Virus record (IMG/VR): IMGVR_UViG_3300031167_000052
Location: 1 to 20,087 of that record
Strand: one strand, 5' to 3'
DNA from: a virus
Length of the DNA: 20,087 nucleotides
In this document: positions 1-15,073 of the stretch, piece by piece
Numbering within the stretch: position 1 is the stretch's first letter
Layout: every line of letters begins with the position of its first letter
Made by a program: the position numbers and the translations under genes
The notes under the pieces: generated by a model
The model's input: only the letters and a program-made list of their open reading frames with translations
What the model was told of the DNA's origin: nothing
The model's database searches: none

Positions 1-1998
1 AGTTGAATTTATTGTATCAGTTGTTCTTTTACTAACTGAAATTTTATATAGATTTAATTCTTCAGCAAAATCTGTTACCTTAGTCTTTTTCTCTTTAACA
101 CATCTTTTTAATAAATCATCCCACTCATATCCTGTTCCACATTCTATAGGTTTAGTAATATCATCTATAATTCCACCATAACTTATCCAAAGGTCTCTAG
201 CTGCAGCAATATAGTCAGGAGCTTCAGCCATTTCCTTATTCATTTCTTCTTGCTCATTTTTTAATAGCTTTATCTTTCTGCTTAATTTTGCTGCAGGTAT
301 AGCCATTTGAAACATAGCCTCCCCTCTTTCTACCGCATCCTTAATAAAATCATCACTATTAGGGTCGCTTAGAGCATTAAATTTAGCTATTTCCTCCTTC
401 TGTTTTGTTTCTAATTTAGATATTTCTAAGGCTTTAAGTTTTAGTTGATATTGATTTGCCATATCTTTAGCTATAGCATCATTCATAACCTCTTCAGCAG
501 CTTGTAATCTTATCTTATCTTCAAACACAGCATTAAGTTCTCTTTGAGCTTGTGAATTCTTAAGTTTACTGAAATATAATTCTTCTCCATTATCAATAGC
601 TTCTAATTCATATCCTAATTGCTCTCCGTAAAGTCTATTTGCTTTTTTAACTAGCGAAACTGCAGTTTTCGTTGCTGTGTTATTATTTCTAATAGCATTA
701 AATAAATCATTCATTGCTTTTTGGTCTTTCCTAAGCTTATCAGATAACCTTACTTCAGCCACTTCTGTCATTGACCCTGCTAATGTAGTCATCCATTCTG
801 CCAACTTATTTACAGCGGGAGCAACTCTTTCTGATAAAGATAAATATAAACCTTCTAAAGCTGATTGAAACTTTTTAAATGCACCTTTAGATGTTTCTTC
901 CATTATAGCACTCATTTCCCTACCTGCTCCTTCTGCATTGTTTAGTGCTGTAGTATATTTTTCTATTTCCTCTACATTCTTAATCATAGACTCCATAGCA
1001 ATTACTTGTCTTTTATCAACAAGACTTTGCATCTCTAACTGACCGATTTGAGATTTTTTAAGTATTTTAAGAGCCTCAATCATATCCTCAGTACTACTTA
1101 CCGTAAATCCTATTCTCTTTGCTAGAGCCTCTGTAGGGTTAGACATTTTTAAGAATATATTCCTTAAAGACGTACCTGCAATAGAAGCTTCAATACCTGT
1201 ATCTGCTAAAGCACCCATAACCGCAGCAGTTCCCTCAATATCAACTCCAATACTTGCTGCAATAGCAGAAACCTTAGTCATAGATGTTTGCCATTTTTCA
1301 ATATCTAAAGCTGAACTAGTAAATGATACAGCCATAACATCAACTACTCTTCCTGCTTCGCTTGCATCAAGACCAAAACCTCTTACTGCTGAACCTGCAA
1401 CTGTTGCTGCTCTAGCTAAATCACTTCCTGTAGCCATTGATAAATCTAATGTAGCTGCCTGAACCTTAAGTATTTCATCAGCACTAAATCCTAACTTAGA
1501 AAAATTAACCTGTAATTCAGCTACTTGTTTTGCTGTAAAGAATGTTGTACGACCCAATTCCTTAGCACTTTCAGTAAGCTTCATAAATTCATCATTTGTA
1601 GCTCCTGATATTGCTCTTACTTTAGCCATTGAGAACTCAAACTCAGTAAAAGTTTTAAATGCAGTAACAAAAACACGACTAAGAACCCTAACGATTGAAA
1701 TTACTGCCGTTATAGTTGCGGCTGTTTTAAGCATACTTGAACCCATAGACCTACCTGCCTTTGTAGATTTTTTCTGAGCAGATGTTTGAGCAATTAATGC
1801 TTTTCTATTTTCTCTTACCTTTACAGTAGCCTTATCAATAGCTCTTTCTTTATCTTTCCATTCTGCCTCTGATTCTTTATTTACCTTAGTAACTTTCTTT
1901 TGTTCGTCTTTAAGGTCTTTTAATGCTTTCTTTAGTTTAAGAAGGTCATTAACACCTTTAATTTTTACATCTATAATTTTTTGTTCTGCTCCTGCCAT
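1..1998 (-). CDS. Phage tail tape measure protein, TP901 family (N-terminal 666 residues, runs off left edge)
   Basis: This is the N-terminal part of a tape measure protein, which sets tail length and is packed inside the tail tube. The frame stays open from ATG at 1998 to the window edge. Residues about 1-80 are a lysine/glutamate-rich, coiled-coil-like segment. Residues about 88-115 are hydrophobic (ITAVISIVRVLSRVFVTAF). Residues about 119-320 match the conserved core of the TP901/PhageMin_Tail family, with the recognisable runs MAKVRAISGATNDEF, ELGRTTFFTAKQVAEL, GFSADEI and ALADTGIEASIAGTSLRNIF. The rest is helical and charged. The start lies 4 nt after the stop of the upstream gene, so the two are probably co-transcribed. 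The gene indicates a long-tailed phage (sipho- or myovirus morphology). I am confident of the family; the C-terminal length cannot be seen. Confidence 0.93.
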   Translation of the reverse strand, partial: MAGAEQKIIDVKIKGVNDLLKLKKALKDLKDEQKKVTKVNKESEAEWKDKERAIDKATVKVRENRKALIAQTSAQKKSTKAGRSMGSSMLKTAATITAVISIVRVLSRVFVTAFKTFTEFEFSMAKVRAISGATNDEFMKLTESAKELGRTTFFTAKQVAELQVNFSKLGFSADEILKVQAATLDLSMATGSDLARAATVAGSAVRGFGLDASEAGRVVDVMAVSFTSSALDIEKWQTSMTKVSAIAASIGVDIEGTAAVMGALADTGIEASIAGTSLRNIFLKMSNPTEALAKRIGFTVSSTEDMIEALKILKKSQIGQLEMQSLVDKRQVIAMESMIKNVEEIEKYTTALNNAEGAGREMSAIMEETSKGAFKKFQSALEGLYLSLSERVAPAVNKLAEWMTTLAGSMTEVAEVRLSDKLRKDQKAMNDLFNAIRNNNTATKTAVSLVKKANRLYGEQLGYELEAIDNGEELYFSKLKNSQAQRELNAVFEDKIRLQAAEEVMNDAIAKDMANQYQLKLKALEISKLETKQKEEIAKFNALSDPNSDDFIKDAVERGEAMFQMAIPAAKLSRKIKLLKNEQEEMNKEMAEAPDYIAAARDLWISYGGIIDDITKPIECGTGYEWDDLLKRCVKEKKTKVTDFAEELNLYKISVSKRTTDTINST

Positions 1999-2763: not shown

Positions 2764-5700
2764 TTAAACAGATTCTCCTCCATCTACTATTGTCCAACCA
2801 TAACTATTAACTAAACTTTCTCTAGCAGGAATAGCTTCTGCTGTATATCGACTACCTCCAAAGTTAGTAGTAATTCCTGTAGGTGGAGAATTTAAAACCT
2901 CTTTTACTGAGATGCTGCTTAGAGTAGCAACTGTACCTCCATTGCTATTTATCGTAAACCCATCGTTCTGATTAGCGGCTGTAAAATAATTCACATAAGT
3001 TCCATTATCTGCTGCGGTTAGTATAGGTCTTGGTGGAGTGGAACTGTGTGAACGCCCAAATTTTAACTCTATTGAGCCGCTTGTAATATCTAAGTCCTCT
3101 ATTACTAATTTGTAGCTTTTACCTATTTCAAAAAAACTACTAACCTGTGAGCAGGATGAATAAACTGTACCTCCTCCGCTTGTGTCGATTTGGCTACTAT
3201 TTAAACTTAACCCACTTGCATTAAAAAATTGACCTCCAACTGATGATATACTCCAATCCTGCCCTACCTCTTTTACTGAGATGCTTTTTAATGTTAATGA
3301 AGTACCTGACAAAGTACTAGTATAAAATCTATTATTAGTACCTGAGCCTATAAAATAAGCAGTATGAACACCTACACTATCATCTACATAAAAATAAGCA
3401 CCACCATTATAAAACCTTAAAGTCATACCTCCTACATTTTCAGTAACCTCATAAGTTACTTTATATTGTTTTCCTACAACTATAATATTACTCTGATACA
3501 GTTTAGTATTAATATCAAAAATAGCACCATTATTAAACTCTACACTACCATCAGGTACTACCCAATACTGCCCTACTTCTTTTACTGATATGCTGTTAAA
3601 TACAGAACCTACACCTGATGAATATCCATTATTAATTCCTACTCTTCCCCCGCCCCAAGTGCTACTCCCTCCTACAGCATATATTATCTGTAGTCCTACT
3701 ATTAATGAATAATTTCTACCTGCTACCCAAAGTGTAGTAGCTCCATCTAAACTCACTACATCTACAATTATTTTATATGAATTGCCTGCAGTTATTCCGC
3801 CTGTTGTTTGATATGCTAAACCTCCTGATGTTTTAGCTAATTGTTGAGTTTCTGTATTTATACTTGAAGAGCCACCCCAATTAGTATCTGTTACAAAGTT
3901 TGGATTAAGCATAAATTCACTACCTATCTCACTAAAATCTCCATTAAGTATCTCCTCTGCTCCTATCTCATCAAAATCTCCATTGCTTATAAGTTCAGGC
4001 TCTTGTACTGAACCTGAATCCTCCCATTGCATAAGTAATTCATCATAGTTAGCAGTTGATAGAGTTACATTTGTCATAAAACCACCCATACTACTTGTAG
4101 AGTTATCTATTATTGATGTAATATCCCATTGACTTATATTTTGGTCAAAATTATTAGCATTACGGAACATATGACCCATATCTTCAACATACTTCATCTC
4201 CCAATTATTTATGGGTTGGTTAAAATTATTGCAATAATAAAACATATATCTCGTCCTAGTAGCAGAACTTGTATCCCAATTATTTAAAGGCTGATTAAAT
4301 GCGAAACATCTGAAAAACATTGTATAGAAATCAGTAACATTTCTAACGTCCCAATTATTAACAACTCCATTAAAGAAATCACAATTCCTAAATGTATTTT
4401 GTAAGTTAGTAGTTGAAATAATAGGAGCGGTAGTAGCAGTACAAGTCATATAAGTACATCCGAAAAATGAAGAATGCTCAGTTATATTAAATCCTCCCCA
4501 ATTACTTATAACTCCCATCTTAAGCCTATCTCCTCCTTCATTAAACTTCCAACCTTTTACCTCTCTATAAATATTTATAGTATAAGTTCCTGCAGATGCA
4601 TAGGTATGTAAAGTTTCTGCTTGATTGTAAGATGTTATGTTACTTGTAGTAGCATCTCCCCAATGAACTACCATATTTATATCTCCTGATGATATTAATG
4701 GTAATTGGAATTGGTCTGTATCTGATAATACTTTTTTTACTGATACGTTAGTAACGGTAAATTGCCAATCCCCTGCTGCAGAATTCCGTGCTACATTAAT
4801 TCCTTGAGAATTGCTATTAGATTCAAAAAATATTTCTATATTTTGAGTTGCTCCTGTTAATGTTACTGCTCCATTTACTGAAGTTAACCCCCCTACATTA
4901 CTAGAATTATCCTGAAATCTCATTACCTTACCTGCAGTACCACTTAACGTAGCGGTTAACTTATATTTTTCACCGGAAGTATATGTTAAACTTTGATAAA
5001 TAGAAGCGTATGCCCCCCTTATAACATTTATTTCAGCAAGTCCATTAGATATTGTAGCGTTGGTTTTTGACCAATCTCCATTATCTCCTAAGCTAAAATC
5101 TGAATTATCAACCATTTCACTCCCCAAAGTACTACTATCAGTATCTACTGAAAATGTAAATGATTCATCTACAGGAAGAACACCACCACCATCTGTTATT
5201 GTCCAACCATAATCATTTACTAATTCGTTCCTAGCAGTTTCAGCGTCTCCGTAGAATTTATATTCACTATTCCCAAAGTTAGGAGTTAAGTCTGTAGGAG
5301 CAGTATTTAATATTTCTTTTACTGATACACTATTAAAAGTAATATCTACATTAGCAGTCGCTCTATAAAATTTTAAAGGAGTATTACCGGTTGGAGTAAT
5401 TATCCTTGTATTTATTCCTAAAGTATTAAAAGTTTCTGTTATTCCTGCACCATCTATTTTTACACCTCCACTAACTCTCTCTGAAATATCTACAATTATT
5501 TCATATGTCTTTCCTGCTGTTAGGATATAAGTCGATGTTATTAACTCAGTAATAGGACTTGTATTTAAAAACTTTAATCTTGCCGTACTGCCATCAAATA
5601 CAACATAATTATCAGTAGTTTCAGAACTTACTGTCCAACCTGTACCTAAAGGTAGTTGAGTAAAATCCCCATTAGTTACGAGTTCAGGTTCTACTACCGT

Positions 5701-7407
5701 AGGAGAACCTAACCATCCTGTTAATAAAGAATCATAGTTAGAAGTCCCAAGTGTTGCTCCTAACATTACGTCATTCATATTTGTTACTGATTCAATATTC
5801 CAATTACCTAAGTCTTGGTTGAAGTTAGTAGCGTAAGCAAACATACCCTCAATTCTAACAAAAGAACTAGTATCCCAAAAACTTAATGGTTGGTTAAAGT
5901 CATAAGCTTGATAAAACATATTGAGCGTAAGAGTAACAGAACTTACATCCCAATTATTTAAAGATTGATTGAATTCATAAGCTCTAAAAAACATATAACT
6001 CATCTCAGTAGCAGAACTTACATCCCAATTATTTAATGGCTGATTGAATTTATGGGCTGCATAAAAAACACCAAACATACTTTGTGCAGAACTTAAATTC
6101 CAATTATTTAAAGGTTGATTGAAATTATCACAATTAGCAAACATATAATTCATATATATAACAGAACTTGTATTCCAATTATTTATGGGTTGATTGAAGT
6201 TATTGCACCCTAAGAATACTTGTTGCATATCTACAACTCCACGAGTATTCCAATTATTAACAACTCCATTAAATAATAAACAATTTCTAAAGGTCTGATA
6301 CAGATTTGTAGTTCCTATAATTAGAGAGTCAGTAGCAGTAGCAGTCATATTAGAACAGCCTTTAAACGTTTGAGTATCAGTTATAGTAAACTGTCCCCAA
6401 TTACTTATATCATTTATTTTAAGTTTATCTCCTGAATCAGAAAACCTCCAACCCCTAACCTCATTAGTAATCTTTATAGTATAAACTCCTGATGCAGCAT
6501 AAGTGTGAAGAGTTTCAGCTTGATTATAAGTTGTTATAACATCTGAAGTTCCATCTCCCCAATCTACATTCATACTAATAGCTCCATTTGAAACTAAAGG
6601 TAATTGGAATTGGTTTGTGTCTGATATTACCTCTTCTTCACTCCCTAATGTCTGACTATTAGTATCTACCTCAAAAGTAAACTTTATATTTGAGTCTTTT
6701 TCAGCATTACTAGGTCTTCCATCTACATATCCAAGTCTTTCATTTGGATAGTTATGGATAGTTTGATTATTAACATAAGAACCTAAAGCTGAAGTATCTT
6801 CTATATCTGATGACCTCAGCAGTTCCACAAGATTACCATACTCATCACTAACAAGAGTTTTAGAATATAATGAGTCTTCTTCTGTTGTTACTTCTTTTAT
6901 TGATATGCCTGTAACACTTCCAACTGTACCTGAAGCATTAGGTCTCACTCTTACTCTATCAGTATTTGTAGCTGTAATTATTTGAGAATAAATACCTGTA
7001 GTGTATCTATTATCCCCTACAACACCACCAAAAGTCATAACAAAATTACCTGAATATATAGATAATACTTGAAAACTTAAAACATAAGACTTTCCTATTT
7101 CAGCAATAGTAGTTCCTTGATTTAGGTCATCATTTGAAGTCCCATCACAACTGAAAAATCCTGCTATTGTTTTATCCCAATTTGAATTAGCGTTCCAATC
7201 AGTTCCTGCAACAGCATTACTTCCATTCTCTATTTCTTCAGCACCTTCAGGATTAGTATCGTAATAAACATTACCCTTTGAAAGACTTACAATTCCTGTA
7301 TCACTAGTAGACATAGAAGAACTGTTAATTGGATTCCAATTTTGTTCAGACGCACTATTCCTTCTAGGTATATTTTGGTGTGATTTAGTTTTATTATATG
7401 TTCTCAT
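2764..7407 (-). CDS. Giant modular tail adhesin: PKD-like, BspA/DUF285 repeats and nested carbohydrate-binding-like modules
   Basis: A 1547-residue protein, probably a receptor-binding tail fibre or spike component. From the N-terminus it holds: a short leader; a carbohydrate-binding-like module (about 57-171); a segment SLYSKTLVSDEYGNLVEL; a PKD-like domain (about 268-320, VDWGDGTSD); seven 25-residue BspA/DUF285 repeats (about 378-552, FNQPxNNW core); a second module (about 573-699); and GWTITDGGG. A second copy of the plan follows: VDTDSSTLGSE, an inserted module (765-894), a PKD-like domain (about 900-950, WGDATTSN), four DUF285 repeats (about 1010-1120), then three mutually nested modules (1137-1504) and a closing GWTIVDGGE. 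Six modules carry NGDF-like starts and SVKEV-like ends. DUF285 repeats are leucine-rich-like and found in surface and phage adhesins. There is no signal peptide, as expected for a virion protein. Function is inferred from architecture and its place in the tail cluster. Confidence 0.85.
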   Translation of the reverse strand: MRTYNKTKSHQNIPRRNSASEQNWNPINSSSMSTSDTGIVSLSKGNVYYDTNPEGAEEIENGSNAVAGTDWNANSNWDKTIAGFFSCDGTSNDDLNQGTTIAEIGKSYVLSFQVLSIYSGNFVMTFGGVVGDNRYTTGIYSQIITATNTDRVRVRPNASGTVGSVTGISIKEVTTEEDSLYSKTLVSDEYGNLVELLRSSDIEDTSALGSYVNNQTIHNYPNERLGYVDGRPSNAEKDSNIKFTFEVDTNSQTLGSEEEVISDTNQFQLPLVSNGAISMNVDWGDGTSDVITTYNQAETLHTYAASGVYTIKITNEVRGWRFSDSGDKLKINDISNWGQFTITDTQTFKGCSNMTATATDSLIIGTTNLYQTFRNCLLFNGVVNNWNTRGVVDMQQVFLGCNNFNQPINNWNTSSVIYMNYMFANCDNFNQPLNNWNLSSAQSMFGVFYAAHKFNQPLNNWDVSSATEMSYMFFRAYEFNQSLNNWDVSSVTLTLNMFYQAYDFNQPLSFWDTSSFVRIEGMFAYATNFNQDLGNWNIESVTNMNDVMLGATLGTSNYDSLLTGWLGSPTVVEPELVTNGDFTQLPLGTGWTVSSETTDNYVVFDGSTARLKFLNTSPITELITSTYILTAGKTYEIIVDISERVSGGVKIDGAGITETFNTLGINTRIITPTGNTPLKFYRATANVDITFNSVSVKEILNTAPTDLTPNFGNSEYKFYGDAETARNELVNDYGWTITDGGGVLPVDESFTFSVDTDSSTLGSEMVDNSDFSLGDNGDWSKTNATISNGLAEINVIRGAYASIYQSLTYTSGEKYKLTATLSGTAGKVMRFQDNSSNVGGLTSVNGAVTLTGATQNIEIFFESNSNSQGINVARNSAAGDWQFTVTNVSVKKVLSDTDQFQLPLISSGDINMVVHWGDATTSNITSYNQAETLHTYASAGTYTINIYREVKGWKFNEGGDRLKMGVISNWGGFNITEHSSFFGCTYMTCTATTAPIISTTNLQNTFRNCDFFNGVVNNWDVRNVTDFYTMFFRCFAFNQPLNNWDTSSATRTRYMFYYCNNFNQPINNWEMKYVEDMGHMFRNANNFDQNISQWDITSIIDNSTSSMGGFMTNVTLSTANYDELLMQWEDSGSVQEPELISNGDFDEIGAEEILNGDFSEIGSEFMLNPNFVTDTNWGGSSSINTETQQLAKTSGGLAYQTTGGITAGNSYKIIVDVVSLDGATTLWVAGRNYSLIVGLQIIYAVGGSSTWGGGRVGINNGYSSGVGSVFNSISVKEVGQYWVVPDGSVEFNNGAIFDINTKLYQSNIIVVGKQYKVTYEVTENVGGMTLRFYNGGAYFYVDDSVGVHTAYFIGSGTNNRFYTSTLSGTSLTLKSISVKEVGQDWSISSVGGQFFNASGLSLNSSQIDTSGGGTVYSSCSQVSSFFEIGKSYKLVIEDLDITSGSIELKFGRSHSSTPPRPILTAADNGTYVNYFTAANQNDGFTINSNGGTVATLSSISVKEVLNSPPTGITTNFGGSRYTAEAIPARESLVNSYGWTIVDGGESV
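2896..4000 (-). repeat. Three nested carbohydrate-binding-like modules
   Basis: The outer module begins at residue 1137 (ISNGDFDEIG), is interrupted after residue 1149, and resumes at 1383 (QDWSISSVGG), ending near 1504 in SVKEV. The middle module begins at 1150 (AEEILNGDFSEIG), is interrupted after 1162, and resumes at 1280 (QYWVVPDGS), ending in VKEVG at 1382. The inner module runs uninterrupted from 1163 (SEFMLNPNF) to 1279 (VKEVG). In nucleotides: outer 4000-3961 plus 3261-2896; middle 3960-3922 plus 3570-3262; inner 3921-3571. Each module resembles the CBM_4_9-type fold found in many marine phage virion proteins. Confidence 0.7.
4070..4378 (-). repeat. Four BspA/DUF285 repeats, block 2
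   Basis: Four units (FNGVVNNWDV, FNQPLNNWDT, FNQPINNWEM, FDQNISQWDI) repeat the plan of block 1 in the second half of the same protein. The last unit is extended by a Ser/Gly-rich insertion (STSSMGGFM). The block is three units shorter than block 1, consistent with unit gain or loss after duplication. The boundaries are approximate. Confidence 0.8.
5752..6276 (-). repeat. Seven tandem 75-bp (25-residue) BspA/DUF285 repeats, block 1
   Basis: Seven consecutive 25-residue units each begin FN and carry the core FNQPxNNW, then (N/D)xSSxxxMxxMF. The first (FNGVVNNWNT) and last (FNQDLGNWNI) are the most diverged, as is usual for end caps of a solenoid. The period is exactly 75 bp with no indels. 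The first ends of the block are approximate to a few bases. Confidence 0.85.
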
Positions 7408-7414
7408 ATTTATT

Positions 7415-10400
7415 TTAAGTGTAATCTATAATATCAGTATTCTGATATACAGGATAATGTCCAACTTCTAACCATTGTATTAATTCAACTTTTGTTGATT
7501 CATTGTTAGCAGGACTAAATTCTGAAATTTTATTTACTCTCCACCAAGATTCATCAAGATAAACTAATTCTCTTAGGTCTAAATTTAATATATCGCTAAT
7601 TTTTAAATTAATATAAACAGTTCTAATACGAGGAGCTTGCTTTAATTGCTCTATCATATTTTTATAATATGTTGTATATAATCCCGGCACTTCATTTACA
7701 TTAAACTGACCGGGAGCTGTAAATAATTCATCATTAAAAGATAGCGATGGTCGTTGAGTAATTGAGTGTATTCTTTCTTCCCAATCTACAAATGTAGCTC
7801 TAGGGTAAACTGTTTGGTTTTGAAATGGACTTCCATTACTAAATACTCTAGACCAATATGTTTGAGTACCACTTGCATTAGCAACTAAACCATTTGGCAT
7901 CGTTGTGTAATTTACAGGATTTTCCCAACAATAATAAAATATTCGAGGAACAAAAGAAGCCATTAGCTGTGCAGGTCTCCATTGGCTATTTCCTAACCCT
8001 ATTCCCGCATAACAATCCTCATTCCATAAGTTAGGAATCAAGATAGGAGCTTTTATAGCAGTAGAATCATCGTGAGCATCATTGTCCCAAACCTGCGTAG
8101 ATGAAGAGAATAAATTATTTATAATTTTAATCTCTCCCGACTCATAATTATCTCCTAGATTTTCATTATAATTAAATAATTTAGTTGTGTCTCCATATAT
8201 GTTAGATTTAAAGTTTTGTTCCTGCTGAAAAACATCTGAGTTGTCTTCTTTATATCCTATTGTTAGTTCTCTTTTAAGTCCTATATCATAATCATCTACT
8301 ATATCTTTAGATAAATCTACTTTCATATCCCAATTTGAAGAATATTCTTTTGATTTAAAGAATTTATTAAAAGGCTCTATATATACTGTTTTAGACTGAA
8401 CATCAGTTGTAAAATAAAGATTAAACAACTGAGATATACTTTTTATGTAATCCGTTTGACTAACACCACAAGGAAGTATATTGTTATAATTGATATACCC
8501 TCCTAATTTTATAGATGCATCATCAAATGTAATTGACATACTAGGTCTAGTAGAACCTGCTGTTGCTGCAGAAGAATTATATCCGAATAATAAATCTACA
8601 TCAGGCTCGCATCCTATTATATTTTGTGTATCAATCTTCCCTTGAAGCTCTATTGTGTCTCCAACTGATAGAACAACACTACCCGGAGGTATAGATGTAT
8701 TTCCATTAGAAACTTGTCCACATAACACATAAGCATAATCTAATGGCAGCATATTTGGACTACCCCATCCCGATGATGTAGTGCCTACATAAGCAACACC
8801 CCCTGAAGCGTAAGTAACTTTAACTCTACTAGCGTAAGACCACATATCAGATGGAGCGGATGGAGTCCACCCCCATTCACAAGTCTCACTATAATTACCA
8901 CAACCATTATTTCCGTTAGAATCAGGACCTAACCTTAATTTAATCCAAAATCCCATTTGAGCATTTATTGAGTATTGACCTGCTCTTTGACAAGTCCAAA
9001 TTCCTGTTGCATTGTCATAAGAGTTTGAATTATCTTCAACACTAACATCTAATATGCAGGTTTCCCAACCTATATTATTGTTACCCATTCCAACATCACT
9101 ACCAAATAACTGAAAACTATTATCATTCCTTTCCTGCAGACTACTAAAATGAATAGAATCATCTACAGCCGTATTTGATAAAAAAGGAAAAGTATTTAAA
9201 AGTCTACTAAAATGGTCTGTTTCAATAAAAGAAGAGTCAATAGTGTATCCTATTCCATTAAATATTCTTTTAAGCATATTTTTAACATAGTATGAAGGCT
9301 GTAAATCAGGATGTTTTGTTTCGTCAAATGTATTTACATAGTTAGCTAATCCACCTACACCAAAGTCTTTATAAGATATTAAAGGATATTGAATATCACT
9401 ATTAGAAGAGTTTTTTAGCCAAGTGTTTTCTATTTCTTGGTAGTTATATAAAAACTCTTCATCAGCACCAAAAACCTCACATAGAAATTTATCTTTTAGC
9501 AAACTCATCCAACTAAAATTACCCCCATAAAGAGTACAAGAATAATACTCAGGATTTGATTTCTGTATAGAACTCTTAATTTGAATAGTTCCTTCAAAGA
9601 AAGGAAGCCCATCAACCAACACCCTACAATCTTTTACCCCAAATGTTTGCTTGTCTACTTGGTCTACAGTTGATTTCCAAACATTGTTTAATATACTGTT
9701 ATTTTTTGCTGTAGCAGGAATATTAAAAGTCTGAGAATAATCTCCAAATCTACTCTCTAAATCCTTTCCATCTGAAATATTATATGATATGTTTAGAGGA
9801 AAATCTTGACTATTACTAACTTCTAATTTTCCATATAAACTTTTATCTTCATTTATAACTTGCGTTGTAGATGCAGTACTAACACTTTGATAAACAACAT
9901 CTAGCTTTGATATTATAACATTTACTCCTGATTCACTAACTACAGTACAATCAATATATCTATCACTAGCAGTAAATGGAGCTACTGAATCAGTTTGATT
10001 GAATTGAATAACAGCACTATTAGTACCAATAATTAATGGATGTGTAGGATTCCAAGCAGGATTATTAGAAAATCTTATACCTCCCGCAGGAGCAGTCATT
10101 AAAGTCTGCAGTCCTGTAGTATTTTGCAATGGATACAAACTCTCTCCAATGGTAATCATATCTTCATTAAGATTAACAGCAGTTACATCTACATCTACTC
10201 TACCAAAGAGAGGAGTTGTTCCTGTTGGAGTATTTTTAACATCAGCTATACCATAAATAGTACTTATGTTATAAGGGGCATCAGGAACTTCAGTTATTTT
10301 AATTAAATTGAAGGAAATATCACTTCCTTGCACAAAATATCCCGGAGTAAACCCTTTATATTCTATACTAAAAACTTCATTACCTCCTACAGAAACAAAA

Positions 10401-11344
10401 TCTACATACTGAGAGGCTGTATTTTGAGGGTAAAAATGAAATGCTGTAGTCGGTTGTGTTACAGGTGTCCATTCTCCTGCTCCTGCCGTTCCATATATAG
10501 GAGAGTTATCTCCTCCTAAATTATTATAAACTTGTCCATTTATAGATACTCCATTATCAAGTGCGTGTGTACCAAGCTTCCAAATACCATTTCCCAATGT
10601 ATCTCCGTTGTCAAGGTCTATTTCTAATCTATATGTTACTCCTGCAGTAAGACCTTGTATTGTTTGGTATATTCCTGAGCTTGCCTGAGCACCACCACCT
10701 GTCCCGCACAAAGAATTACCTTGAAAAAGCTGACAAACTGCTGCACTTTGATTTATGTTAGGAAGAGAATTTGTTGCAGTTCCATTTACACCAAGACCTA
10801 TATCAATACAAACAGTTCTAGCTCTCCTCCACTTAGCACTTCCTGATTGTTGTTGAGATATATTTCCTAGAGTCATAGCTAAACCTACAGCATCTTGCGT
10901 AGTATAAGAATTATAAGAGCTTGCAAATCCTCCACTACCTCCACTAGAACTATTAAAATCTCCATTTTCTACAAGATTTGTAGATAGAGGCACATTATTA
11001 GTTCCATAAAAAGTAATTTCTCCTCCCGTGCCTAAAGGTACAGGAGTGTCTCTATAGAATATACCGCAAAATCCTCCACTAGCCCCATAGGCAGTACCAA
11101 TAGCGAAAGAACAGGGCGTCCAAATTGTACTTGAAGGAGTTCCATTTGCTCCTCCCCTATTAAAACTAATATAATTTTCAGTAAGACTACATCCTGCTTG
11201 ACCTATATTTAATTGATTAACTTGACTTCCTGAGAATCCAGTATCCCAAACATTATTTGAATGAGTTGTAGTTACTCCTCCTCCTGTTGTTACTGTTTCT
11301 AACTCAGTATCTATAATTTCTATTTCAATAGACTTTGAACTCAT
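7415..11344 (-). CDS. Large tail protein, probable baseplate/tail-tip hub with inserted adhesin domains
   Basis: A 1309-residue tail protein. Residues about 127-318 form a carbohydrate-binding-like module starting NLVENGDF, with the typical strand GIYQTIQGLTAGVTYRLEID. From about residue 497 (EDKSLYGKLEVSNSQDFPL), through DLESRFGDYSQTFNIPATA at about 530, the sequence resembles large tail proteins that I associate with flavobacterial phages. About 775-950 looks like an inserted C1q-like jelly-roll (YDNATGIWTCQRAGQYSIN ... VLSVGDTIELQG). The hub-like sequence resumes at DYIKSISQLFNLYFTTD (about 960) and ends with LVYLDESWWRVNKISEFS. The ATG follows directly on the stop of the upstream gene, and the stop lies 7 nt before the adhesin gene. 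The hub role is inferred from resemblance and order. Confidence 0.7.
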   Translation of the reverse strand: MSSKSIEIEIIDTELETVTTGGGVTTTHSNNVWDTGFSGSQVNQLNIGQAGCSLTENYISFNRGGANGTPSSTIWTPCSFAIGTAYGASGGFCGIFYRDTPVPLGTGGEITFYGTNNVPLSTNLVENGDFNSSSGGSGGFASSYNSYTTQDAVGLAMTLGNISQQQSGSAKWRRARTVCIDIGLGVNGTATNSLPNINQSAAVCQLFQGNSLCGTGGGAQASSGIYQTIQGLTAGVTYRLEIDLDNGDTLGNGIWKLGTHALDNGVSINGQVYNNLGGDNSPIYGTAGAGEWTPVTQPTTAFHFYPQNTASQYVDFVSVGGNEVFSIEYKGFTPGYFVQGSDISFNLIKITEVPDAPYNISTIYGIADVKNTPTGTTPLFGRVDVDVTAVNLNEDMITIGESLYPLQNTTGLQTLMTAPAGGIRFSNNPAWNPTHPLIIGTNSAVIQFNQTDSVAPFTASDRYIDCTVVSESGVNVIISKLDVVYQSVSTASTTQVINEDKSLYGKLEVSNSQDFPLNISYNISDGKDLESRFGDYSQTFNIPATAKNNSILNNVWKSTVDQVDKQTFGVKDCRVLVDGLPFFEGTIQIKSSIQKSNPEYYSCTLYGGNFSWMSLLKDKFLCEVFGADEEFLYNYQEIENTWLKNSSNSDIQYPLISYKDFGVGGLANYVNTFDETKHPDLQPSYYVKNMLKRIFNGIGYTIDSSFIETDHFSRLLNTFPFLSNTAVDDSIHFSSLQERNDNSFQLFGSDVGMGNNNIGWETCILDVSVEDNSNSYDNATGIWTCQRAGQYSINAQMGFWIKLRLGPDSNGNNGCGNYSETCEWGWTPSAPSDMWSYASRVKVTYASGGVAYVGTTSSGWGSPNMLPLDYAYVLCGQVSNGNTSIPPGSVVLSVGDTIELQGKIDTQNIIGCEPDVDLLFGYNSSAATAGSTRPSMSITFDDASIKLGGYINYNNILPCGVSQTDYIKSISQLFNLYFTTDVQSKTVYIEPFNKFFKSKEYSSNWDMKVDLSKDIVDDYDIGLKRELTIGYKEDNSDVFQQEQNFKSNIYGDTTKLFNYNENLGDNYESGEIKIINNLFSSSTQVWDNDAHDDSTAIKAPILIPNLWNEDCYAGIGLGNSQWRPAQLMASFVPRIFYYCWENPVNYTTMPNGLVANASGTQTYWSRVFSNGSPFQNQTVYPRATFVDWEERIHSITQRPSLSFNDELFTAPGQFNVNEVPGLYTTYYKNMIEQLKQAPRIRTVYINLKISDILNLDLRELVYLDESWWRVNKISEFSPANNESTKVELIQWLEVGHYPVYQNTDIIDYT

Positions 11345-13165: not shown

Positions 13166-15073
13166 TTAATATATTTTATATTTATTATTTAAGTAATTTA
13201 TTACTGCAGTTTGTTCTGTTAAACTTAAAGCTCTATTGTATATTATAAGCTCCTGAACATTTCCATCTAAATTACCTAAATGAGTTCCGTTTCCTATTTT
13301 AAATTTAGCAGCATTGTATGTTTGAGTGCTATCGTAACTTGCCATAGTTCCTTCTTGTATAAGAACATTATTATACTGAAGGCTTAAATTAGATATAGAT
13401 GATTCTAGCTTCATAGTTGCTATATGGTACTTTGAACTATCCCCATTCCATATCCTTCTAGCGTTCCACTCCCCTGAACTCTGAGAACTATCAGCTAAAT
13501 TACAATATATTCTTTCTGAAGAACTTCCTAAAGATATTTTTGCATTTCCAAACTCATAACTAAAGTAAGTGCTTTCTTCTGAATTAGGAGCAAATGCTCT
13601 AAAGTTATCAGCAGTCATACCCACCATAGTACCATCATTAGAATTTGCACTAGCATCAGGAATAGTAGGGAATGTTGCCCCATCTCCCATTCTCCACCAA
13701 CCAATAAGACTTGGAGAGCTAGTTGCTAAAGTTGTTAAGTCGTTTGGATTACCTAAATTATACAGCTCAACAATTTCAGCAGTAGATAATTCTTTATCAT
13801 AAATACTGCATTCATCTAAATCTCCAACATAAGGATTGGTATTCCCATTTCCTAAATCAAGAGAAGATGTAGTTGTCTGCATACCATTATAAGTACCACC
13901 TTGATGAAATGAGCTTTGAGATTCTACTCCATTTACATATATTTTCATTCCTGCAGTAGTACCACTACCATCATAAGTAGCTGTATATAAAGCCCATTCT
14001 CCTTTCTGATTGATATTCAATACCTTTGCGTTTATATACCCTCCTGCTATATTATCATAAATAAAAAAGTGTACATCTCCTGAAGAGTACACAGGTCGAA
14101 AAGAATACTCTGCCTGACCTACTTCATATTTCTCTATCCACCCCCTCCAAGGCTCTGTAGGGTCTACATTTGCCCAAACACTAAGGCTGAATGGTTGGTC
14201 GTTTCCTGCTCCATCTGTAAATGAGAAAAGCTGACCTCCTGCTCCACCTGCAGGGTTGCCACAATCAACAACATCTCCTGCTCCTTCAAAGTTTGTAGAG
14301 TATGTATTTGTAAATGGAGTAGTTACAGGCTCTGCTTGTGCAACTGTAAATATTGTAAAGTCTGTATTAATAGGACTATTAGTAACTGATTCTAATTCAT
14401 CAGCAGTTCCATCAAAGTTTATTCTTGTTTTATCTGAAGCTCCATCATAAGGTATTCTTAATGGCTGTTTTGTTGCTGTAGATTGAGCAGCATTGTTATT
14501 GTTTCCTGATTGGTCTTGCCAAGCACTTATTCTTTTAGTTGGAGTGTCAAATGTAACGCCACTATCAGCCCTTAACCAAGTTGATAAATTAGGTATCTGA
14601 GTAGGGTAGTGTGTTGGTATGCTACCTAACATACATCTTGTAACTCCTCTCATTGTAAAGCTCATCTTAATTTGAATAAGCCTGTCATTTGCAACTTCTT
14701 TTACTCTTTTTATATCAATAGATTCGTCTAGGAAGTAAACCCCCACTCCTGCTCCTGTAGGATTCTTAAAGTTAATCATTACATTATTTAGCCATTCTAA
14801 AGCTAAATCCTCTAAGTTATCCCATTTTTGTTCTAGTAAAACTGATTTCTGTGATGCTGTTTGATATAAATCAAAGAAATCTATCTCAAAATCATAAGAT
14901 TCCCATCCATTATATATTTCAGGTATTTGTGAGTCAGGTGGTATTATCATCATATACGGATATTGCGTATTATGATGTTGATTTACTTCAAATTCATAAG
15001 CAAAGTCCTTATCCCCGTAAGTCCATTTGCTTTTCATTGCAGCTACTATATCTGTTAGTCTTGTTATTGCCAT
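13166..15073 (-). CDS. Tail protein with a LamG-like domain inserted inside another LamG-like domain
   Basis: A 635-residue protein. Residues 1-150 form a conserved-looking domain (YPYMMIIPPDSQIPEIYNGW, DFEIDFFDLYQ, NLEDLALEWLNNVM) resembling small tail-completion or terminator proteins; that is a tentative reading. Residues about 160-253 start a concanavalin/LamG-like fold (LSTWLRADSGVTFDTPT, AWQDQSGNNNNAAQS, TDFTIFTVAQAEP). Residues 254-496 are a second, complete LamG-like unit (NTYSTNFEGAGDVVDCGN, FSLSVWANVD, MKIYVNGVES, LDECSIYDKELSTAEIVELY, SLIGWWRMGDG). Residues 497-635 finish the first fold (YFSYEFGNAKISLG, YNAAKFKIGNGTHLGNLDG, ELIIYNRALSLTEQTAVINY). LamG domains bind glycans, so an adhesion role is likely. 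The gene starts 5 nt after the proposed frameshift extension ends. Confidence 0.75.
   Translation of the reverse strand: MAITRLTDIVAAMKSKWTYGDKDFAYEFEVNQHHNTQYPYMMIIPPDSQIPEIYNGWESYDFEIDFFDLYQTASQKSVLLEQKWDNLEDLALEWLNNVMINFKNPTGAGVGVYFLDESIDIKRVKEVANDRLIQIKMSFTMRGVTRCMLGSIPTHYPTQIPNLSTWLRADSGVTFDTPTKRISAWQDQSGNNNNAAQSTATKQPLRIPYDGASDKTRINFDGTADELESVTNSPINTDFTIFTVAQAEPVTTPFTNTYSTNFEGAGDVVDCGNPAGGAGGQLFSFTDGAGNDQPFSLSVWANVDPTEPWRGWIEKYEVGQAEYSFRPVYSSGDVHFFIYDNIAGGYINAKVLNINQKGEWALYTATYDGSGTTAGMKIYVNGVESQSSFHQGGTYNGMQTTTSSLDLGNGNTNPYVGDLDECSIYDKELSTAEIVELYNLGNPNDLTTLATSSPSLIGWWRMGDGATFPTIPDASANSNDGTMVGMTADNFRAFAPNSEESTYFSYEFGNAKISLGSSSERIYCNLADSSQSSGEWNARRIWNGDSSKYHIATMKLESSISNLSLQYNNVLIQEGTMASYDSTQTYNAAKFKIGNGTHLGNLDGNVQELIIYNRALSLTEQTAVINYLNNKYKIY

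Follow-up and report, generated by a model that had tools for sequence, protein, structure and literature searches.

Recursive nesting of CBM-type modules in a putative phage adhesin, and a probable deletion scar in one of its duplicated linkers

The 20,087-base phage record IMGVR_UViG_3300031167_000052, analysed at its full length and referred to here as the window, contains a gene of 1547 amino acids at 2764-7407 on the minus strand, near a tape-measure gene located at 1-1998 (phrog_1533, E 4.2e-66). Direct reading of the sequence, a core HMM, and Pfam and phrog matches show that the encoded protein consists of two successive units, each with a PKD-like domain ahead of BspA/DUF285 leucine-rich repeats, and contains six CBM-like modules recognised by the core HMM. 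The DUF285 match (E 2.4e-86, 285.9 bits, with a cut-off of 25) places the repeats in the BspA/DUF285 leucine-rich repeat family, the PKD_4 match lies below the cut-off of that family, and the two PKD-BspA units share 54% protein identity. The same sequence is present in two other IMG/VR records, with 100% identity over 6,393 bases, and therefore an assembly error is unlikely to be the source of the difference between linkers described below.

The tails of the BspA repeats, flanked by EPEL...LN(T/S)(A/P)PT, carry one module level in copy 1 and three in copy 2, all of them on the minus strand. The tail of copy 1 holds a single uninterrupted module (5311-5685, ELVTNGDF...SVKEI), identified by reading and by the core HMM. 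In the tail of copy 2 (2896-3996), two openings located by reading and by a structure model, opening 1 (ELISNGDFDEIG, 3961-3996) and opening 2 (AEEILNGDFSEIG, 3922-3960), precede an innermost complete module (3574-3921, SEFMLNPNF...SISVKEV; reading and core HMM). This is followed by the core of a middle module (3265-3573, GQYW...SISVKEV) and by that of an outermost one (2896-3264, GQDW...SISVKEV), whose first strands, on the basis of the core HMM and the structure model, would be opening 2 and opening 1, respectively. The module is interrupted by itself at one loop, NGDFxxIG-[module]-GQ(D/N)W, and the order of a stack in proteins is opening-opening-...-module-core-core. When the cores of the copy-2 nest were compared with that of the copy-1 tail, no clear counterpart appeared (28-31 identities over 90-106 positions).

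The linkers of the two units differ as well, and the occupied and unoccupied duplicates reported in the preliminary description can be read directly in the DNA. The linker of copy 1 is TLGSEEEVISDTNQFQLPL, encoded on the minus strand at 6648-6622 by TTA GGG AGT GAA GAA GAG GTA ATA TCA (LGSEEEVIS), with LGSEEEV itself at 6628-6648. The linker of copy 2 reads TLGSE, then 130 codons (MVDNSDF...VSVKKV), then LSDTDQFQLPL. Here the leader TTG GGG AGT GAA (LGSE, 5127-5116) is followed from 5115 by ATG GTT GAT AAT TCA GAT TTT (MVDNSDF), and the insert closes with TCA GTA AAA AAA GTA TTA (SVKKVL), ending at 4726, after which SDTDQFQLPL is found. The insert comprises 390 bases, in frame, and the core HMM confirms that the module, located with its leader at 4729-5127, belongs to the family (E 9.4e-13). 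With six such modules in this gene and 90 non-redundant balanced stacks of related ones (see below), its recurrence greatly exceeds what chance would produce.

A protein query with the module in viral contigs returned the same phage twice and no other, and relatives were for this reason gathered by means of DNA back-translation patterns. A tblastn search in 50,697 named phage records gave no match for the nested region of the window or for that of locus L004. The A5 profile found nothing in five genomes behind bacterial BspA loci. In the family of G001, 299 genomes yielded one match, to a single module (model positions 13-134), at most nine candidates in the genomes listed having been scored in this first look, where absence is weak evidence. 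Searching IMG/VR by DNA pattern for two successive openings, the first of the form NGDFxxIGxE, recovered 91 stretches, and a module profile was built from 280 loci (122 distinct seeds, 116 columns, consensus ELVTNGDFATDSDW...SIDNVSVKEV), the core profile being the module without its first strand. ORFs were then written as tokens, namely O for an opening without an adjacent core, M for an opening with its core, and C for a core without an opening of its own; the cut-off used called 625 openings, versus 6 in shuffled sequences. Removing 42 stacks cut by contig ends and 27 near-duplicates from an initial 184 left 115.

With the strict tokeniser, openings equal cores in 90 of these 115 uncut and non-redundant stacks, which belong mostly to other phages, versus a mean of 36% and a maximum of 53% in 10,000 permutations. 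The commonest words are O M C (50) and OO M CC (36), frequencies that are not representative, as part of the sampling was made via nested signatures. By eye, ten of the ten complete stacks of one printed set balance (from 2/2 to 5/5), and two more in that set are cut by contig ends. Among the 25 stacks that remain unbalanced under strict tokens, eight are openings called without any core, and several others show, on inspection by eye, an opening or a core that had been missed, the stacks of L074, L100 and the window itself balancing 3/3 in this way. A looser regular expression for openings brought no gain (87/115 balanced, 24 unbalanced, 4 without core). The nested modules claimed in the preliminary description are thus borne out, with three levels in the copy-2 tail and balance in most of the related stacks.

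A branched bracket word, OOOMOMCCCC, balanced overall and with its first openings at amino acid 26, is found in L034, L035 and L063 (six rows); one module seems there to contain two guests in series, the second of which is nested too. The largest stacks, those of L211 and L229 (about amino acids 190-918), have six cores each, with four or five openings according to the strict tokeniser and more by eye. Nested modules have been seen in at least four phage protein contexts (ATRVN...PRIDY, NTYYSPNR, MIQLTKGTNVLDINLSDFSGAG and PKD-BspA).

The topology of these stacks was modelled with AlphaFold2. The two-level stack of L088, a query chosen for its high mean identity, was predicted from a 56-row alignment of 57 two-level sequences from which the window locus (L001) was omitted, giving a pLDDT of 93.9, a pTM of 0.85, and a pLDDT of about 93 for the orphan opening. 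The model resembles the CBM16 2zew (Z 13.7, rmsd 2.2, 117 aligned of 146 residues) and the porphyran CBM 8xmz (Z 13.7, 118 of 137), a hyaluronan-binding module being also found in this range (Z 13-14). Single domains (2zew, 8xmz, 4d0q) span residues 1..235 to 1..238 of the model with 117-127 residues aligned, which exceeds the length of the outer core by itself (132-238, 107 residues), while 6zps (13..131, 119 aligned) and 6sgf (13..133) fit the inner module. Thus, as judged from first and last aligned residues and aligned counts rather than from coordinates, the model has an A1-B-A2 arrangement, with an outer domain at 1-13 plus 132-238 and an inner one at 13-131, and the orphan N-terminal strand completes, in this prediction, the outer domain around a contiguous inner domain.

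The triple nest of the window (2890-4002, with 43 three-level relatives) was predicted with a pLDDT of 73.6, residues 1-19 being below 50. Single domains nevertheless extend over nearly all of this model. The best matches, both over 2..370, are the ligand-binding domains of Eph receptors (Z 11.8, 128 aligned) and, level with them, 8xmz (Z 11.4, rmsd 2.9, 123 aligned), and 8x8h aligns over 13..247 (Z 10.9) with 114 residues, the middle core alone having 103. In this model, opening 1 is paired with core 3 and opening 2 with core 2.

On the predicted L088 structure, the module is a galactose-binding-like (CBM-type) β-sandwich. At the sequence level, Pfam CBM_4_9 (PF02018) reaches E ≤ 0.1 in 2 of 43 members, with 2e-4 as its best value, and has no match in the window protein at E ≤ 1. 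DUF642 (4/43) and AlcCBM31 (8/43) also appear sporadically at E ≤ 0.1, and a PDB sequence search with A3 returned nothing at E < 0.02. Carbohydrate binding by the module and a role of the protein as a tail adhesin, forming an adhesive side arm, are suggested by the fold and by the position of the gene.

The same slots are found occupied in some proteins and empty in others, the module-free state being present in other phages and in bacteria. Among 38 ATRVN...PRIDY slots of other phages, taken from loci first found by the ATRVN pattern and not by a nested signature, the module is absent in 19 (17 with just 17-18 residues between anchors and two with another insert). One module is present in 2/38, two levels in 4/38 and three levels in 13/38, this last count including two OMCC rows judged by eye. 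Four levels occur once in the full set, in L019, and a single homologous slot therefore carries from zero to four levels across phages. As regards BspA tails, 49 of 52 distinct ones lack the module by motif, among them L306, with a module-like insert missed by the motif, and L435, which is a long match across repeats. Genuine empty sites are thus those of the BspA tail and of the ATRVN slot of other phages. In L142, the ATRVN slot holds a single uninterrupted module where two or three levels are usual, and its core resembles by eye the innermost core of the window nest (SLDGATTL, NNGYSS and GSVFNSISV in common).

Cores also recur in different positions. There are 94 DNA matches with at least 82% identity that each cover a single core in two proteins, some of them corresponding to related genes and the same slot. 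The outer nested core of L005 and a free core of L030 share 98% identity over 331 bp, from DW to just beyond SVKEV, and the module in the copy-1 tail of the window is 90% identical in DNA, over 329 bp, to the outermost nested core of L050. These matches indicate that cores have been exchanged between nested and free positions.

It could be argued that nothing is nested, openings (NGDFxxIGxE) being one tandem repeat and cores (GQxW...SVKEV) another, independent one, with each core folding with the preceding SVKEV strand or with none. Openings are short and may in part be matched loosely, cores are seen to move independently of their opening, and the sequence distances of outer openings are uncorrelated with those of outer cores (Mantel r -0.01); those of inner openings and inner cores do correlate (Mantel r 0.41, P 0.0005). 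However, the absence of outer covariation, which is not positive evidence, would be expected if cores were exchanged under a conserved skeleton. Furthermore, the numbers of openings and cores are coupled, AlphaFold2 puts the orphan opening into the outer domain with high confidence, and free and nested cores swap NGDFxxxxDW for SVKEVGQNW in the presence of an upstream orphan opening, all of which makes independent repeats very improbable. A different proposal would be that the module is carried into a DNA target such as GGNAGTGAA by a dedicated mobile DNA element or by a site-specific recombinase. The module ends are precise and in frame, the common junction DNA is specific to each nesting level, and junction codons are skewed, the second V of SVKEV being GTC in 85/189 junctions versus 4% across those ORFs, the G next to it being GGG in 91/192 versus a background of 9%, and the Ile of the 5' junction being ATA in 125/135 versus 57%. 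Nevertheless, codon identity for the same residue, compared in two sets of random pairs (700 and 300) drawn from 48 stacks, is 0.57 at the 3' junction (expected 50%) and 0.55 in the interior of cores (expected 48%). Since it is no higher at the junction than inside cores, the skew fits shared descent, and the 48 stacks display no excess of DNA conservation at junctions, nor did the analysis of junction codons find a DNA-specific insertion site. Moreover, the sites used are unlike in protein and in DNA (PKD linker, BspA tail, ATRVN slot and the module itself), and no recombinase was recognised among the scanned genes of the window, whose record is a fragment, so that a dedicated element is quite improbable.

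The linker pair had been presented as evidence for insertion, copy 1 preserving the empty target. Insertion and nesting of modules are supported by the data above, but copy 1 as a preserved target is not. A pristine site (TLGSEEEVISD), with EEV replaced by the module ends when copy 2 received its insert subsequent to the duplication, would be favoured by the direct alignment of the linkers on either side of the insert and by the presence of the module in copy 2 only. However, PKD-type linkers collected by DNA pattern in viral and bacterial contigs (136 distinct, 91 with both anchors recognised) have 8-12 residues between anchors in 85/91 cases. This length is 9 in L306 (two copies), L325 and L343, and 8 in L375 and L379, the linkers with the closest flanks, while it is 16 in copy 1 and, among the 91, in only one other (L485). 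The linkers of the nearest relatives are thus 7-8 residues shorter than that of copy 1, which is also the only one of the 91 with GxE in this stretch, GSE being present in 0/90 of the others. By contrast, the leader with which the module normally starts is [LFYI]GSE(L/E), with GxE at that position in 105 of 138 non-nested complete modules. Nor does the proposed EEV replacement recur. An overlap of SVKEV-like ends with a resident (D/E)E(I/V), claimed from three cases, is not general among 204 nested 5' junctions, in which the position two before G is occupied by Q 151 times and by E 52 times. A pristine target is therefore unlikely, and LGSEEEV is probably a deletion scar rather than a pre-existing sequence, because its extra residues match the two ends of a module, the start LGSEE and the end EV, with the middle lost; this polarity is based on motif and length and not on a rooted tree. 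An ancestral module in both copies, deleted from copy 1, was the outcome that the preliminary description had set beforehand against its own claim, and it is now the better reading, if not a proved one.

Taking all these data into account, the best explanation, to which a probability of about 0.8 can be given, is that CBM-type modules are nested within modules of their own family and that the linker of copy 1 probably keeps a deletion scar. The two ends of the module, the leader (L/I/F)GSE with strand 1 'ELVxNGDF' and the last strand 'SVKEV', would close on each other, and it could thus be inserted into a loop without disturbing the host domain. In this phage and in many relatives, one favoured loop would be that which follows strand 1 in a further copy of the module (NGDFxxIG^GQ[DN]W). 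Repeated insertion would lead to the order opening-opening-module-core-core, in which each orphan opening provides strand 1 for a core lying one hundred to several hundred residues further along the chain. From this topology, both ends of a stack would lie at the base of a side arm, and each added level would lengthen that arm of the adhesin leaving its neighbours unmoved. Variation of the cores may serve binding, and units could be spread by ordinary recombination between conserved blocks (NGDF, SVKEVGQxW), a process that would most simply account for their spread as well as for nesting. As for the linkers, the module would have been present before or soon after the duplication of the PKD-BspA unit, and that of copy 1 would have been lost through an internal deletion with LGSEEEV as its residue. 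In more general terms, we are slightly inclined to consider that phage adhesins can grow tree-like architectures through recursive self-insertion of one β-sandwich module at a fixed loop. Their domain order would follow a bracket grammar, depth (up to 5) and occasional branching would be evolvable, and cores would be exchangeable cassettes on a retained skeleton of openings and junctions.

CBM_4_9 and CBM16-type modules have an N-terminal motif ahead of W comparable to that of the phage module. The phage module resembles CBM_4_9, CBM16 and other galactose-binding-like CBMs in its predicted fold (Z 13-14), and differs from curated CBM families in that its sequence matches are weak and sporadic and in that it is interrupted by its own kind. 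Nested domain insertions (A1-B1-C-B2-A2) are known, reaching six levels in the SI3 of cyanobacterial RNA polymerase (PMC13114784), where, as here, domains lie within domains at several levels and each still folds. SI3 is described there as a lineage elaboration of one enzyme, whereas in the phage proteins the same small family acts as host and guest, at the same loop, with a depth of 0-4 at one slot and with exchanged cores. A CBM4 pair is inserted in GH10 xylanases (Pm25; PMC7848910), and the CBMs of BiXyn10A (4mgs, 4qpw) are among the structural matches of the L088 model. In those enzymes, CBMs also lie within a loop of another domain, as two tandem CBMs inside an enzyme and not one inside another. 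Repeated, putatively carbohydrate-binding BACON domains occur in crAss-like phages with predicted Bacteroidetes hosts (PMC6949934), and these repeats are tandem, whereas the phage modules described here are nested. Domain mosaicism in phage receptor-binding and neck proteins (PMC10684548) is similar in that exchange between phages diversifies host contact, but the exchanges shown there are whole-domain swaps, the word 'nested' does not appear in that paper, and the modules here are self-nested. Thus, nested insertions, CBMs inserted in enzymes and tandem carbohydrate-binding repeats in phages were already known, and no description of one module family recursively self-inserted at variable depth in phage proteins was found in the open-licence PMC literature.

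As a rule, a domain is inserted once, into a member of an unrelated family, whereas this module is its own favoured host. Since one homologous slot carries from zero to four levels in living phages, it can be observed how nested domains are added step by step, lost and exchanged, which is relevant to how phages lengthen and diversify their surface-binding arms. It has to be borne in mind that ordinary annotation misreads such proteins when it lists tandem modules together with 'orphan' N-terminal motifs, and that in them a lone NGDF motif belongs to a core located up to hundreds of residues away.

Two further genes of the window deserve mention. The neighbouring gene at 7415-11344, on the minus strand, encodes a protein of 1309 amino acids with a lone NLVENGDFN motif, scored as an opening and without a core match (locus row L027). 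At 13166-15073, also on the minus strand, a 635-amino-acid protein matches the tail terminator family phrog_347 at residues 399-487 (E 8.1e-16) and the virion structural family phrog_10356 at residues 157-264; it may be a fusion of a tail terminator with LamG-like domains.
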